Shown here in pieces: positions 8,675-52,585 of a DNA stretch of 52,585 nucleotides. The position numbers and the translations under genes are program-made. Source of the stretch: Nitrosospira sp. Nsp14 (lineage in GTDB: Bacteria; Pseudomonadota; Gammaproteobacteria; Burkholderiales; Nitrosomonadaceae). The stretch's first letter is position 1. Every line of letters begins with the position of its first letter. The stretch lies in contig NZ_FOPV01000020.1 in NCBI RefSeq assembly GCF_900113575.1, positions 1-52,585 of the forward strand, given 5' to 3'. Below the pieces are notes generated by a model that was not told where the DNA came from, did not search any database, and saw nothing but the letters and a program-made list of their open reading frames with translations.

Positions 8675-8908
8675 CTATGACCGGTCGCGCAGTTCCGTCA
8701 CCCCCTCCTGCTCGGCGCAATGGTTGCAGCAGTACATGGTACCGCTCTTTTCCAGCCCGTGCCCCACGATTCTTACCTTGCAATGCGCGCATGTCGGCGC
8801 CAGCGTGCTGATCGCGCACTCGAAGCTGTCGAAGGTGTAGGTCTTGCCGCCGGCAATTACCTGGAACGCTTTGTCATAGTCATTCCCGCATGCGTCGCAT
8901 TTTGGCAT
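8675..8908 (-). CDS. Small zinc-ribbon (metallothionein-like) protein
   Basis: Cytosolic 77-residue protein with CDACG near the N-terminus, FECAIS, CAHCK and a C-terminal YCCNHC, enough cysteines and histidines for one or two metal sites. Similar short proteins are widespread in proteobacteria and are often annotated as metallothionein-like or zinc-ribbon; their role is unproven. The start at 8908 has a strong ribosome binding site (GAGGAGGA just upstream on the minus strand). The gene lies 67 bp after the second leader-bearing peptide gene and on the same strand. It could be co-transcribed with the peptide cluster, but because such genes also occur alone elsewhere, membership is uncertain. 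Confidence 0.8.
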   Translation of the reverse strand: MPKCDACGNDYDKAFQVIAGGKTYTFDSFECAISTLAPTCAHCKVRIVGHGLEKSGTMYCCNHCAEQEGVTELRDRS

Positions 8909-8975: not shown

Positions 8976-9263
8976 TTAACCTAACGTAAGCACAGGGTCA
9001 CGGCACAGTATCCAGGGATAGCCATCCGGGGTGCGCCGGCATTCGCAGTTCTGCAGCGGATGAGTTCGCTGCGAGGTGCACACGAATCTTCCCAGCGACG
9101 GTACATAGCCGCAGCATCGCATCAAGGGAAAAATATCAAAACCCCTCCAGATCTGGCTCGGCGTCACTTGCATCGAGCCAGATTCACTGTAAGAAAGCGT
9201 TCCCCTATATGTATTCATCGATCGGCCAAGCGAGGCTTCCGCATTAAATTGTGGCATGTTCAT
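8976..9263 (-). CDS. Short Cys-rich peptide B with FxAEASL leader (RiPP precursor candidate)
   Basis: A 95-residue product starts at the ATG at 9263, eight bases after AGGAGGAA. The frame is open 46 codons further upstream, but that part is antisense to the previous gene's tail and has no ribosome binding site. The N-terminus MNMPQFNAEASLGR matches that of the preceding peptide, including a shared YR and an SGS about 10-20 residues later. The C-terminal half carries six cysteines (RCCGY, FVCTS, NCECRR, ILCRD), also sharing the word CEC with its paralogue. The pattern of a conserved N-terminus and a divergent Cys-rich C-terminus suits a leader plus core. The cluster partners are a PatG-like protein and an S8 protease upstream in the same orientation. 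Modification and activity are unknown. Confidence 0.7.
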   Translation of the reverse strand: MNMPQFNAEASLGRSMNTYRGTLSYSESGSMQVTPSQIWRGFDIFPLMRCCGYVPSLGRFVCTSQRTHPLQNCECRRTPDGYPWILCRDPVLTLG

Positions 9264-9307
9264 TTTCCGTTTCCTCCTGATCACATGATAAAGGGCATCG
9301 TTTATCC

Positions 9308-9538
9308 TTAAAGTTCGCCCAAAACCGCGTGTATCACCCGCATCGCGCCTCCTGATGTGCAGACGCAGATATCCGTTGCGGCATCGCATTCGCAGGTCCA
9401 ATCCCTGAGCTTGATGCGTTGCGGAACGATCGATCCGCTATCAGCCATGCTGAGTCCGTTAGCGGCCGTGCGATAAGGCGTGTTGATACGGTCGAGCGAG
9501 GCTTCGGCCGTGAATCCCGGTATGGTCGTCGTATTCAT
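9308..9538 (-). CDS. Short Cys-rich peptide A with FxAEASL leader (RiPP precursor candidate)
   Basis: A 76-residue product starts at the ATG at 9538 behind a near-perfect AAAGGAGGT site. The N-terminus MNTTTIPGFTAEASLDR is clearly paralogous to the next gene. The shared elements are FxAEASL, a YR about eight residues on, and SGS before a proline-containing stretch. The C-terminal part contains four cysteines (WTCECD, ICVCTSGG) and ends in VLGEL. There is no signal peptide or membrane span. It lies 45 bp downstream of the PatG-like gene and 44 bp upstream of peptide B, so the three read as one transcript. Being a processed precursor peptide is inference from context; a non-processed small protein remains possible. 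Confidence 0.75.
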   Translation of the reverse strand: MNTTTIPGFTAEASLDRINTPYRTAANGLSMADSGSIVPQRIKLRDWTCECDAATDICVCTSGGAMRVIHAVLGEL

Positions 9539-9583
9539 TTCGTACCTCCTTTCAGTTAGTGGTTCGAACAGTCGTGTTTGCGG

Positions 9584-10546
9584 TTATCGATCATAGTAGG
9601 GCGACATCTTGGTCACCAGAAACGGAAATTCCTCGGTGGCGTCGACGCGCACAAAGAATTTCTCGGTAAAGTCGGTGTTGCGATTGGTGTAGGAAAAGAT
9701 GGCTTTGTAGATCTTGCGGGTGCTGCTAAGCGACGAGGGCACGACCTCCACTCCGGTCAGGGAACAATCCGCGCCGTATTTTTCCGCTGTCTTTGCATAA
9801 ATCACCTGATAACGCATGGCCAGATAGTTCAGGACGCGATGTTCGTCAGTTGCGCCCGCGTTATCCGTCATTTGCATAATGCGGTGGAATAGTTCTTCGG
9901 CTGCCGGGGCGAATTGTTTCTCCCCGACGTTTCCCGGCCTGGGAATCGCCTTGATGAGGGTGTCGCGCGCGAATGAGTAGATCTGGTCAAACGCGACAAT
10001 GGGAATCATGAGTCCATTGCACATTTCTGGCGGTGCAATGGGTCCGCGCATGCCTATAACCACGTCGATGTCGTTGGGCGTGGGCGCCGGACGGATGGCG
10101 TCGATCAGCATGTCGATATCGGCCGGATCGCGCGGCTGCAGGAGGTAGGTTTCCAGTCCCTGTATGGTCAAGACCCAGCACAGCTGGCGGACGAGGTAGC
10201 GATTCTGGCGTTGGGACAGCACCTCATGGAAGGCCTGCTGATCGGTTTTGCCGGCAGTGTCGGCGCGCCCGGTCGCCTGGGCAAATTCCTTCTCGGCCGC
10301 CAGATTCGGGAACCGGGCCTCGACCCTTCCGATGGCATAAACATATGAGATGATCCCCCCGCCATTTTGCGCTATTCCCGCTGCTCCGCCACAGCTACAG
10401 CCCGCGGCACCCATCTGCGGCGAAACCGACAGGTTCGAGCGGGTCTCCGCGAACGGCGCACCTGTACGCTTGTCCCCCCCTTCCATTCCTTTAGTCATTT
10501 GGCCCGTTGGCTGTTCTGAAGCCTCGCTCTCGATCTGTTCGGTCAT
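9584..10546 (-). CDS. Free-standing PatG C-terminal-domain protein
   Basis: This 320-residue protein matches, from memory, the C-terminal domain of the cyanobactin maturation protease PatG. The match runs from SYVYAIGRVEARFP (about 67-80) through NRYLVRQLCWVLTIQGLETY, IGMRGPIAPPEMCNGLM and NAGATDEHRVLNYLAMRY to a terminal TEEFPFLVTKMSPYYDR. PatG normally carries an N-terminal subtilase domain; here that domain is replaced by 60 polar residues ending in a GCSCGG motif. The protease is encoded separately 70 bp upstream. The biochemical role of this domain is not established. Its position between protease and peptides suggests it takes part in recognising or maturing them. No transmembrane segment is seen. 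Confidence 0.85.
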   Translation of the reverse strand: MTEQIESEASEQPTGQMTKGMEGGDKRTGAPFAETRSNLSVSPQMGAAGCSCGGAAGIAQNGGGIISYVYAIGRVEARFPNLAAEKEFAQATGRADTAGKTDQQAFHEVLSQRQNRYLVRQLCWVLTIQGLETYLLQPRDPADIDMLIDAIRPAPTPNDIDVVIGMRGPIAPPEMCNGLMIPIVAFDQIYSFARDTLIKAIPRPGNVGEKQFAPAAEELFHRIMQMTDNAGATDEHRVLNYLAMRYQVIYAKTAEKYGADCSLTGVEVVPSSLSSTRKIYKAIFSYTNRNTDFTEKFFVRVDATEEFPFLVTKMSPYYDR

Positions 10547-10616
10547 TTTTTTCTCCTTCCCATTAGTTCATAGTGATAATAGAAACTCGTGTGCGTCGTG
10601 TGCCCAGTCTGCTCCT

Positions 10617-11522
10617 TCATCCCGCCATGCGCCGCGTTGCCGACGACGCCAGCAGGATGTGGTGGGCGGCTTCCGCATCCAGCAGAGGCGGAACGACGGA
10701 AGGCCGCTGCCTGGTGGAACCCTGTGTCAGTGCCAGCTTGATCTGGGCTGCGCTCGACGAGGGAAATTGCGACCACAGCAGCGCAATGGTCCCGGTGACG
10801 AAGGGCACGGCCACGCTCGTGCCAGAGAGGCTGAGCAATTTGCCGTCAGAACCCAGGCTGGTGATGCCGTCGCCCGGCGCGCTCAGCCCTCGCCTGCCAA
10901 TCGACCCGCCCAGATTCGACTCGTTGAGCGGACGTCCACGCGTATCGCACGCCACTACCGGGATAACCCATGGATGACGCGTAATGGCGGAACTGCCCAA
11001 TGTGCCCTGATTGCCGGCGGCCGCCACGATCAGCACCCCCCGGACAAGTGCCTGGTTCAGTGCCTCATCCAGCATCGCCTCACCTCTGGTGGAGGGCTGC
11101 GCCAGGGCGACGCTCAGATTGATGACACGGGCGCCCGCCTGGATGCAATCCAGGATCGCCCTCGCCAGCTCACCCGGGGTAGCAGCGGGCATGTGTTCGC
11201 GTCCGGCGCTCGTCTCGCTGAAGATGGGACGCAGGAGGAGCGTACAGTCCGGACAAAGCGCCGGCGCCGGAGAGGTTCGCTTGGCGGACAGAACGCCCGC
11301 GATGAACGTCCCATGCAAGCATGCCATGCTTTCGTTCTGTGCGCAGGTAGCCCCGTTGGGGCTGGTAAGTCCACGCAGATGTGCCGCATTGAAATCAGGA
11401 TGCTGGGTGAACACGGGCCCGTCGATGAGTCCGATATGGAAGTCTGGACTGCCGCTGGTGCGTTCCATTAACGCCGTGAGCCGGATTGATTGCGTGGGAG
11501 ACATGGCTCCCACTAATAGCAT
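10617..11522 (-). CDS. S8 subtilisin-like protease of PatA/PatG type
   Basis: Subtilase core with all catalytic elements: Asp in IGLIDGP, His in CLHGTFIAGVL, the oxyanion Asn in AAAGNQG and Ser in LSGTSVAVP. Cys pairs flank the His motif and the following CPDCTLLLRPIF strand, a pattern I associate with PatA/PatG-like subtilases. It has no evident propeptide or signal peptide, so it is probably cytosolic, as in cyanobactin maturation. The start is unsure: ATG 11522 is used here, with ATG 11504 and TTG 11552 as alternatives. It heads the run protease, PatG-domain protein, peptide A, peptide B. Cleavage or macrocyclisation of the peptides is inference from the family. Confidence 0.88.
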   Translation of the reverse strand: MLLVGAMSPTQSIRLTALMERTSGSPDFHIGLIDGPVFTQHPDFNAAHLRGLTSPNGATCAQNESMACLHGTFIAGVLSAKRTSPAPALCPDCTLLLRPIFSETSAGREHMPAATPGELARAILDCIQAGARVINLSVALAQPSTRGEAMLDEALNQALVRGVLIVAAAGNQGTLGSSAITRHPWVIPVVACDTRGRPLNESNLGGSIGRRGLSAPGDGITSLGSDGKLLSLSGTSVAVPFVTGTIALLWSQFPSSSAAQIKLALTQGSTRQRPSVVPPLLDAEAAHHILLASSATRRMAG

Positions 11523-11739
11523 CCGGTCCAGAGCCCCTCTGTGCGCCAACAAACATAGTGGAAGTAATGCAGGCAGCAGGCTAAACTTCGAGGCAGGGCG
11601 GCACGTCAGCCGGGCAGCCCCGCAGGCGAAATGAACGAAACCCGAGGAATAGAAGCGTCTGGGGAATGCTCCATCAGTGCCCGCTTTCAGGTCACACCGA
11701 TGCAGCGGAAATCATGATCGAAGCAGGAAAAATTTATCA

Positions 11740-52125: not shown

Positions 52126-52509
52126 ATGTTAAGAAAACCGAGCCCACGTATCTCCACCTACTCGTTATGTGAACCGACCTCGCTCATAAAGTTTTCGAAA
52201 ATTTGGGTGAAGAACATTTGGAAGTTTTTCCTCGGACGCAAACGGTTTCTTTTAATTACTCCACCCTTTTTCAAGATTCAGTTAGCATTTGATCGTTGCA
52301 ATAACTCCATGTTTACCGTACAGATCAGAGACGCAATCGACTGGTGCACAACTAAACAGATCTATATAGATCAAGATTATAGTTTTAAGAGCCTGAAGCG
52401 CCGAGAAGATATTGAAGGGTATTACAATTTGCTAAAGAGGGAAGGAATATCTCCATTAATTGTCGACTGTGGCGCCAATATCGGATTAGCTGTAGTAGTT
52501 TCGATTTAA
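52126..52509 (+). pseudogene. Truncated FkbM-family methyltransferase
   Basis: The frame encodes 127 residues and ends a few residues after the SAM-binding motif IVDCGANIGL (about 112-121), where FkbM proteins would normally continue for 100 or more residues. The preceding VQIRDAIDWCTTKQIYIDQDY matches the usual FkbM approach to that motif. The chain becomes AVVVSI and stops, and the next bases run to the window edge without rejoining the family. An insertion or deletion near 52490 is likely. Such enzymes methylate sugars in polysaccharide clusters, fitting the context. Confidence 0.7.
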
Positions 52510-52585
52510 TCTGACAGTAGGGCCTTGCCAAAGGTGGGGTTACCCGGTTTGATAGAGGTGCGAATCTTTATCAAATTGAGCGCTG

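Follow-up and report, generated by a model that had tools for sequence, protein, structure and literature searches.

A probable minimal PatA-type maturation cassette for FxAEASL-leader peptides in Nitrosospira sp. Nsp14

Our analysis of a 52,585-nucleotide stretch of DNA from Nitrosospira sp. Nsp14 (contig NZ_FOPV01000020.1, positions 1 to 52,585; hereafter the window) revealed a cassette of four genes encoding an S8 protease, a protein with the PatG-type domain of unknown function (DUF) and two short peptides that share an FxAEASL leader motif (Table 1). We consider it likely, on sequence grounds, that this is a minimal PatA-type maturation cassette in which the protease would free disulfide-rich mini-proteins from FxAEASL precursors; we infer that the peptides are the substrates of the protease. 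The first-pass annotation had placed separate S8 and PatG-domain genes, followed by two short peptide genes, on one strand, and this arrangement is found in that order on the minus strand. The strong ribosome binding sites it had reported for both peptides are present (aaaggagg and caggagg; the DUF gene has aaggag), the intergenic gaps were measured at 70, 45 and 44 bp instead of the 44-95 bp it gave, the Asp, His, Asn and Ser that it saw kept in the protease are indeed there and are invariant in 11 aligned proteins, and the SPYYDR C-terminus of the PatG-domain protein was confirmed. The start of the protease gene is uncertain: position 11504 was taken from the alignment to relatives and has no clear Shine-Dalgarno sequence, and 11522 or a TTG at 11552 are alternatives. 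No signal peptide was seen in the protease by eye, and promoter and terminator scans of the cassette gave no excess over shuffles.

The first-pass annotation had staked its reading on both large proteins matching PatA/PatG profiles, and both match such profiles as well as the sequences of crystal structures, the DUF protein also in fold. The protease belongs to Pfam Peptidase_S8 (PF00082, expectation value (E) 6.6e-21) and reached 110 bits with the TIGR03895 PatA/PatG family and 122.6 bits with a type VII secretion system mycosin model, both under the respective cut-offs of 421 and 279. Its best matches in a PDB sequence search were the PatA protease chains 4h6w, 3zxx, 4h6v and 3zxy (2e-30 to 3e-29), followed at 2e-14 to 5e-14 by PatG macrocyclase chains that aligned only from residue 63 or 69; of the two, PatA is its nearer match in these comparisons. 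The DUF protein matched PatG_D (PF18047, E 2.7e-37) and PatG_C (PF18065, E 6e-31). A single-sequence PDB search with it found no relative, and a 23-row DUF profile (A5) retrieved the PatG-DUF crystal structure 4uvq at 9.7e-8. With an AlphaFold2 model of the DUF protein (mean predicted local distance difference test score 71; residues 1-64 under 50), Foldseek returned 4uvq as the sole match below E 0.001 (E 2.7e-12, probability 1.00), at a modest template modelling score of 0.42-0.50 and a high root mean square deviation of 15.4. Two other origins were considered and discarded. As parts of an anti-phage defence system, tested with curated defence models, the protease matched only generic subtilase and IetS models and the DUF protein and both peptides none; as for a phage origin, the protease matched only protease-type and unknown phage families, and the DUF protein and the peptides matched none.

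The leader of the peptides follows the consensus M-P-G-F-[TN]-A-E-[AS]-S-L-Y-x5-Y, with P and F invariant and A nearly so in the aligned motif region. Collecting peptides with this leader gave 93 matches and 92 distinct precursors (one peptide at locus L023 is identical to one at L022). A [VILM]xP[QS] site lies 18-25 residues past the leader motif in 60 of the 92, compared with a mean of 3.3 and a maximum of 9 in shuffles. Because the first profile included the site, the selection was repeated with a site-blind 17-residue leader profile, and the site was again found in 57 of 90 (shuffles 3.3, maximum 9); when each core group is represented by a single precursor, 33 of 60 have the site (shuffles 2.2). 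The cysteines of the 60 site-bearing precursors are distributed with 5 upstream and 462 downstream of the site. What the first-pass annotation had called Cys-rich leader peptides are two peptides with nearly Cys-free leaders, whose cysteines sit in the C-terminal cores.

Codon comparisons separate the same parts. Between peptide 1 and its counterpart in Nitrosospira sp. Nsp2 (L022) the ratio of nonsynonymous to synonymous rates (dN/dS) was 0.68 in the spacer and 0.03 in the core, and comparison of the peptide 1 core with L024 gave 19 synonymous changes and 1 nonsynonymous change. For peptide 2 versus L022 the values were 0.26 (spacer) and 0.04 (core), and another peptide present at several loci gave 0.08-0.17 in the core and, where unsaturated, 0.35-0.88 in the spacer. 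These comparisons show that the peptide genes are real and that selection mostly preserves the part past the site; each precursor thus consists of the leader, a spacer that evolves fast and a core under constraint. The cores also have even cysteine counts, namely in 88 of 92 precursors, in 56 of 60 once redundancy is removed at 60% identity (p 4.5e-13) and in 45 of 48 at 40%, the core start being set 24 residues past the motif in precursors without the site; with site-blind selection 85 of 90 are even. The next residue by evenness of count was Gly (38/60). Counted over the whole precursor, the cysteines are even in only 49 of the 60 non-redundant and 79 of all 92, so that it is the cysteines before the site that spoil the parity, which is a further, weaker sign of a cut there. 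The even counts point to disulfide-bonded cores; metal binding would also be compatible with them.

The DUF proteins themselves carry a similar site. Of 32 split DUF proteins, 24 have [VIL]xPQ ahead of a Cys cluster in the N-terminal arm, namely 13/13 from the genus Nitrosospira and 11/19 others (a thirty-third, from L079, was left out as unplaceable); shuffles gave a mean of 0.94 and a maximum of 5 for the site alone. In fused S8-DUF relatives the linkers read by eye, with no control, VVAS, VTPS, VRPS, ISPS, VTPS, VTPS, LRPS and VRPS in eight of nine cases; the ninth has PPAS, and a tenth fused protein, from Nostoc, is without a linker. Two of the eight serine-form fused proteins belong to a true cyanobactin cluster and lack the Cys cluster past the site. 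Peptides beside fused relatives carry GVEPS, LAPS (G353), GITPS (Nostoc) and GIKPS (Gloeocapsa), and those beside fused Streptomyces genes mostly GVEA with N, D, S or A as the next residue. The [VILM]xP[QS] site resembles the PatA consensus G(L/V)E(A/P)S quoted in the available text of PMC10885120, with intermediate forms provided by the peptides of fused relatives. The last residue of the site is Q in split systems and mostly S in fused ones, in DUF proteins and peptides alike, the Streptomyces peptides being a partial exception.

Genomic distribution ties the parts together. Among 23 Nitrosospira genomes PatG_D was found in 13, and in all 13 the S8 gene adjoins the DUF gene. A two-pattern scan of one genome per species (84,980 species) yielded 25 loci, a floor that mostly misses distant and fused forms because the scan relied on two peptide patterns; genus loci found twice (L056-L059, L061, L066, L068, L069) entered the counts a single time, under their G handles. 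The 17 non-genus loci come from Nitrosomonas, Nitrotoga, methanotrophs, another gammaproteobacterium, Nitrospira, Acidobacteriota, Planctomycetota, Chloroflexota, Actinomycetota and one distant Vibrio. An S8 gene is present at the DUF locus in 16 of them, incomplete or broken in two (L072, L079), and is missing in the Vibrio; 15 of the 17 have a leader peptide that reaches E 1e-3, a threshold that two L078 peptides missed at 2-3e-3. Gene order varies, with a peptide first in L077 and the S8 gene after the peptides in L067. Five plasmid records bear a DUF gene, and three of these (Mesorhizobium, Sinorhizobium, Streptomyces) have S8 and leader peptides, the latter missing from the PLSDB gene table, which is incomplete; neither was found on the other two records (L143, L084). 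From these sequences the split S8 gene, DUF gene and leader peptides can be taken as a conserved cassette in six phyla and on plasmids. The separation of protease and DUF described by the first-pass annotation therefore stands, whereas its view of a local departure from a fused norm does not, since the split form is a cross-phylum lineage. When open frames of at least 80 residues were clustered over 19 loci, one family recurred beyond protease, DUF, peptides and shadow frames, in 2 loci. In a sample of 398 Pseudomonadota, PatG_D occurred in two genomes, that of the window and one fused case, and leader matches at E <1e-6 only in the former, with three weaker ones elsewhere (best 3.7e-5).

The leader follows the DUF gene at the genome level as well. 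Leader peptides were found in 14 of the 23 Nitrosospira genomes, comprising all 13 with a DUF gene and one of the 10 without (Fisher 1.2e-5, for related genomes that are not independent). Together with the 15 of 17 non-genus loci, this runs opposite to a peptide family occurring mainly without these proteins, which the first-pass annotation had named as evidence against its reading. In the DUF-less genome G016 the DUF gene may be absent from the assembly only, because completeness is 80% and an S8 fragment with 71% identity is present. The window genome encodes five leader peptides, two in the cassette and three on other contigs. Around the 20 dispersed copies that we read (a part of those listed), no neighbour family besides the peptides occurred at more than 4 of 20 loci, and shared neighbours mostly tracked orthologous copies. 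Such distant precursors would need processing in trans. Six non-genus genomes with leader matches had all of them at the cassette, and the seventh genome examined, the Vibrio, had none.

The nearest named relative of the window DUF protein in the tree was that of Nitrosospira sp. Nsp2, and an Edaphobacter DUF protein is 72% identical to it. Horizontal transfer was not accepted as proven, since many forks of the DUF tree are open and its branches are long, and finding more than one change does not prove transfer.

We propose that the FxAEASL leader would bring the precursor to the S8 protease, to the DUF protein or to both. The protease is predicted to cut after [VI]xP[QS], 18-25 residues past the leader motif, and the cut would release an even-Cys C-terminal core that, judging by its parity, may form a disulfide-rich mini-protein. 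The site in the flexible arm of the DUF protein might be cut by the same protease or might act as a tethered mimic in its active site, holding or regulating it. Gene positions suggest that one cassette in a Nitrosospira genome could serve scattered precursors in trans. Export through a linked transporter was considered and was not borne out by the neighbours of cassette or dispersed loci.

Several observations weigh against this proposal. The strict site is missing in 32 of 92 precursors, many of which have variants such as VISQ, VQPA or VAQS in its place, and the arm site in 8 of 32 split DUF proteins, all non-genus. The codon pairs were hand-picked and the pairs for blockwise identity were chosen by core similarity; core dN/dS reaches 0.17 in the multi-locus peptide, and peptide 2 versus L027 shows a core dN of 0.28 next to 0.48 in the spacer, with dS saturated. 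DUF genes occur without any S8 gene in L143 (no match in 16.8 kb), L080 and L084, and a leader gene occurs in genome G002, which has no DUF and no close S8 (best 2.3e-7). No linked exporter or oxidase was seen. Finally, according to the available part of PMC4259220, isolated PatG-DUF did not bind PatE' in nuclear magnetic resonance experiments, which argues against the DUF as reader of the leader.

A cut within the leader motif, after FxAEAS, would give a product of spacer plus core. The letters E-A-S fit the published PatA consensus, and the invariant P and F columns of the leader alignment lie in the motif region, as does the almost invariant A; on the other hand, the stretch from motif to site evolves faster than the core in both peptides compared with L022 (0.68 and 0.26 versus 0.03-0.04), cysteine parity is better past the downstream site (56/60) than over the whole precursor (49/60), and in fused relatives the N-terminal motif is distinct from the GVE(A/P)-type site. 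Given the evolutionary rates and the parity we rejected this cut, which we regard as improbable. It is quite improbable, too, that the DUF protein is a core-modifying enzyme, for example an epimerase, in a cassette that makes heavily modified RiPPs (ribosomally synthesized and post-translationally modified peptides). It is the sole widely conserved partner besides the protease, and an epimerase proposal for cyanobactins is mentioned in the available text of PMC4663559, but no catalytic motif was identified in it, the accessible part of PMC4259220 reports poor conservation of the zinc ligands in PatG-DUF, and disulfides already account for the even Cys counts.

That the peptides are mere neighbours, for example regulators or secreted proteins found at the locus through chance or shared regulation, seems very improbable to us. 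Many leader genes in the genus do lie far from the cassette beside unrelated genes, but the linkage at 15 of 17 non-genus loci across phyla, the co-occurrence of leader and DUF among Nitrosospira genomes and the similar sites of the peptides and the DUF arm speak for a functional connection. A broader idea, which we hold to be doubtful, is that protease and DUF form an old, mobile platform, spread across phyla, that makes disulfide-rich mini-proteins and from which cyanobactins arose as a late specialised offshoot; the DUF would then be a non-enzymatic tethered substrate mimic that gates or positions the protease, and patB maybe a relic precursor. The arm copy reading xPQ in split systems and mostly xPS in fused ones would be in line with this idea, and its odds are reduced because the sites of Streptomyces peptides often end in N or D while the linkers end in S.

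The FxAEASL-leader precursors constitute a large, unannotated and apparently undescribed family in six phyla (Pseudomonadota, Acidobacteriota, Nitrospirota, Planctomycetota, Chloroflexota and Actinomycetota, with several loci on metagenome-assembled contigs), many of them in nitrifiers. No convincing match to Pfam or NCBIfam was obtained for 52 peptides; at E <=0.1 six families matched one or two members each, the best being a spider toxin family at 8.7e-4. Among the listed matches of a literature search and the passages available, with most subscription papers and all bioRxiv preprints outside the searched set, neither the peptides nor the cassette is described. The cassette leads to a precursor family with very varied cores, many in nitrifiers. 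The PatG-DUF, whose crystal structure dates from 2014 and is assigned no function in the available text of PMC4259220, is here seen standing alone beside a protease and short peptides, and in such a two-protein system its role becomes directly testable in a cleavage assay.

A number of further features were observed among the peptides and loci. Ammonia and nitrite oxidisers from two phyla (Nitrosospira, Nitrosomonas, Nitrotoga and Nitrospira) share the core DPDLGAYLRCRANGGSDLICRFFGGLPPFTIGG and its variants, which were not seen among the other listed peptides; this type could be a peptide common to nitrifier communities. A 24-Cys precursor (20 Cys in L128) was present at 7 of the 20 dispersed loci in varied surroundings, by eye an ImuA/ImuB/DnaE2-like block in four and mraW/ftsL/murE-like genes in three. 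The dispersed precursors of L120, L132 and L137 share one core type, and each has, at a distance of up to about 5 kb, a gene for a large protein (about 950 residues) that is P-type ATPase-like by eye; the cores of L064 (9463-9864) and L031 (1290-1529) look, likewise by eye, granulin- or knottin-like (CCPTGTHCCNDNHGCC, CPPPQQCCPTGWRCC). On Streptomyces plasmids, fused S8-DUF genes precede several leader peptides that resemble one another and whose cores, past GVEA-type sites, are short and often free of Cys. Vibrio neptunius (L080, 7126-10043) encodes three tandem DUF-like proteins, with no S8 in 16 kb and no leader match genome-wide. In the window, a 77-residue CxxC-rich protein (8675-8908, minus strand) lies immediately downstream of the peptides and is retained there in L022, L023, L025, L026 and L027; a relative was not common to the compared cassette loci, where frames under 80 residues were left out. 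The window end cuts a match to the proteobacterial small RNA psRNA2 of Rfam (52422-52585, minus strand, 80.5 bits).

Table 1. Positions of the cassette genes and sites in the window and of related genes at other loci (aa, amino acids).
Feature	Sequence	Position	Strand	Remarks
S8 (subtilisin-type) PatA-like protease	window	10617..11504	-	295 aa from ATG 11504
Catalytic residues of the protease	window			D28, H64, N165, S230; all present
Stand-alone PatG-type DUF protein	window	9584..10546	-	320 aa; PatG_D + PatG_C
VSPQ substrate-like site in disordered N-terminal arm of DUF protein	window	10415..10426	-	followed by GCSCGG Cys cluster
Peptide 1	window	9308..9538	-	76 aa; leader, spacer, 4-Cys core
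FTAEASL leader motif, peptide 1	window	9494..9514	-	pattern and leader-profile matches
IVPQ predicted protease site, peptide 1	window	9419..9430	-	site position statistic
Predicted mature core, peptide 1	window	9311-9418	-	
Peptide 2	window	8976..9263	-	93-95 aa, ATG 9263 or 9257; leader, spacer, 6-Cys core
FNAEASL leader motif, peptide 2	window	9228..9248	-	pattern and leader-profile matches
VTPS predicted protease site, peptide 2	window	9156..9167	-	followed by Q; site position statistic
Fused S8-DUF genes and following leader peptides, Streptomyces plasmids	L142; L146; L147; L148	10755-11741; 7475-8617; 7580-8979; 5116-9838		
DPDLGAYLRCRANGGSDLICRFFGGLPPFTIGG-type core	L016; L020; L024; L060	8350-8595; 6199-6444; 6467-6727; 9653-9904		
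DPDLGAYLRCRANGGSDLICRFFGGLPPFTIGG-type core	L063; L065; L070; L071	10953-11201; 6578-6823; 6335-6574; 11488-11733		
24-Cys precursor	L122; L126; L128; L129	7470-7937; 7804-8286; 7896-8378; 8374-8835		
24-Cys precursor	L130; L133; L139	7550-8005; 8176-8643; 7671-8153		

Among known systems, cyanobactin clusters were known only from cyanobacteria as of a 2015 review (PMC4663559, available part). With patellamide-type PatA/PatG the window cassette has in common a PatA-type S8 protease, the PatG-DUF fold and a leader with a PatA-like cut site. It differs in that S8 and DUF are separate genes, that the cassette has no second, macrocyclase-type protease and that the FxAEASL precursors have a different leader and long even-Cys cores. 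AYDG occurs in none of the 92 precursors and FYDG in one, cyanobactin precursor models matched none of the 52 peptides at E 0.1, and YcaO, which many but not all cyanobactin clusters have and which the first-pass annotation did not see in its stretch, is carried by 0 of the 23 genus genomes in a search whose control rang in 5 of 14. Hence a PatA-type S8 and the DUF are present; because a PatE-type precursor, a PatG macrocyclase and YcaO are not, the cassette is best read as working like PatA-type leader removal and not as a cyanobactin cluster. The shared leader with variable cores is as in a RiPP; as to modification of the core, the even Cys counts suggest no more than disulfides.

The fused S8-DUF loci of Gloeocapsa, Nostoc and Streptomyces plasmids (no YcaO annotated in the stretch) and the unannotated G353 have the same protease and DUF, short downstream peptides and a site before the core, and Cys counts are even in each of five peptides taken from Gloeocapsa, Nostoc and G353. 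They differ in encoding one protein, in a site that ends in S, A, N or D and not Q, in mostly lacking Cys pairs in the Streptomyces cores, and in the leader [LM]PxQxxPVxR, which we take to resemble the N-terminus of PatE. Four of six peptides of fused relatives matched cyanobactin precursor or PatB models weakly, under the cut-off (E 0.04-0.08). One leader with many unrelated cores is also the pattern of the NHLP and Nif11 leader families and of the prochlorosins, the leader itself being different. Prochlorosin precursors are scattered away from their enzyme. NHLP and Nif11 families of thiazole/oxazole-modified microcins are described without PatA/G-like proteases in the available text of PMC4603692. 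In the accessible part of PMC7369419, SCAB_66631 of Streptomyces scabies appears as an oddity of genome mining, with no leader, site, core rule or family described; it shares with the window PatG homology only in the C-terminal DUF and a position beside four short peptides, and this remark is the nearest published item that we found.

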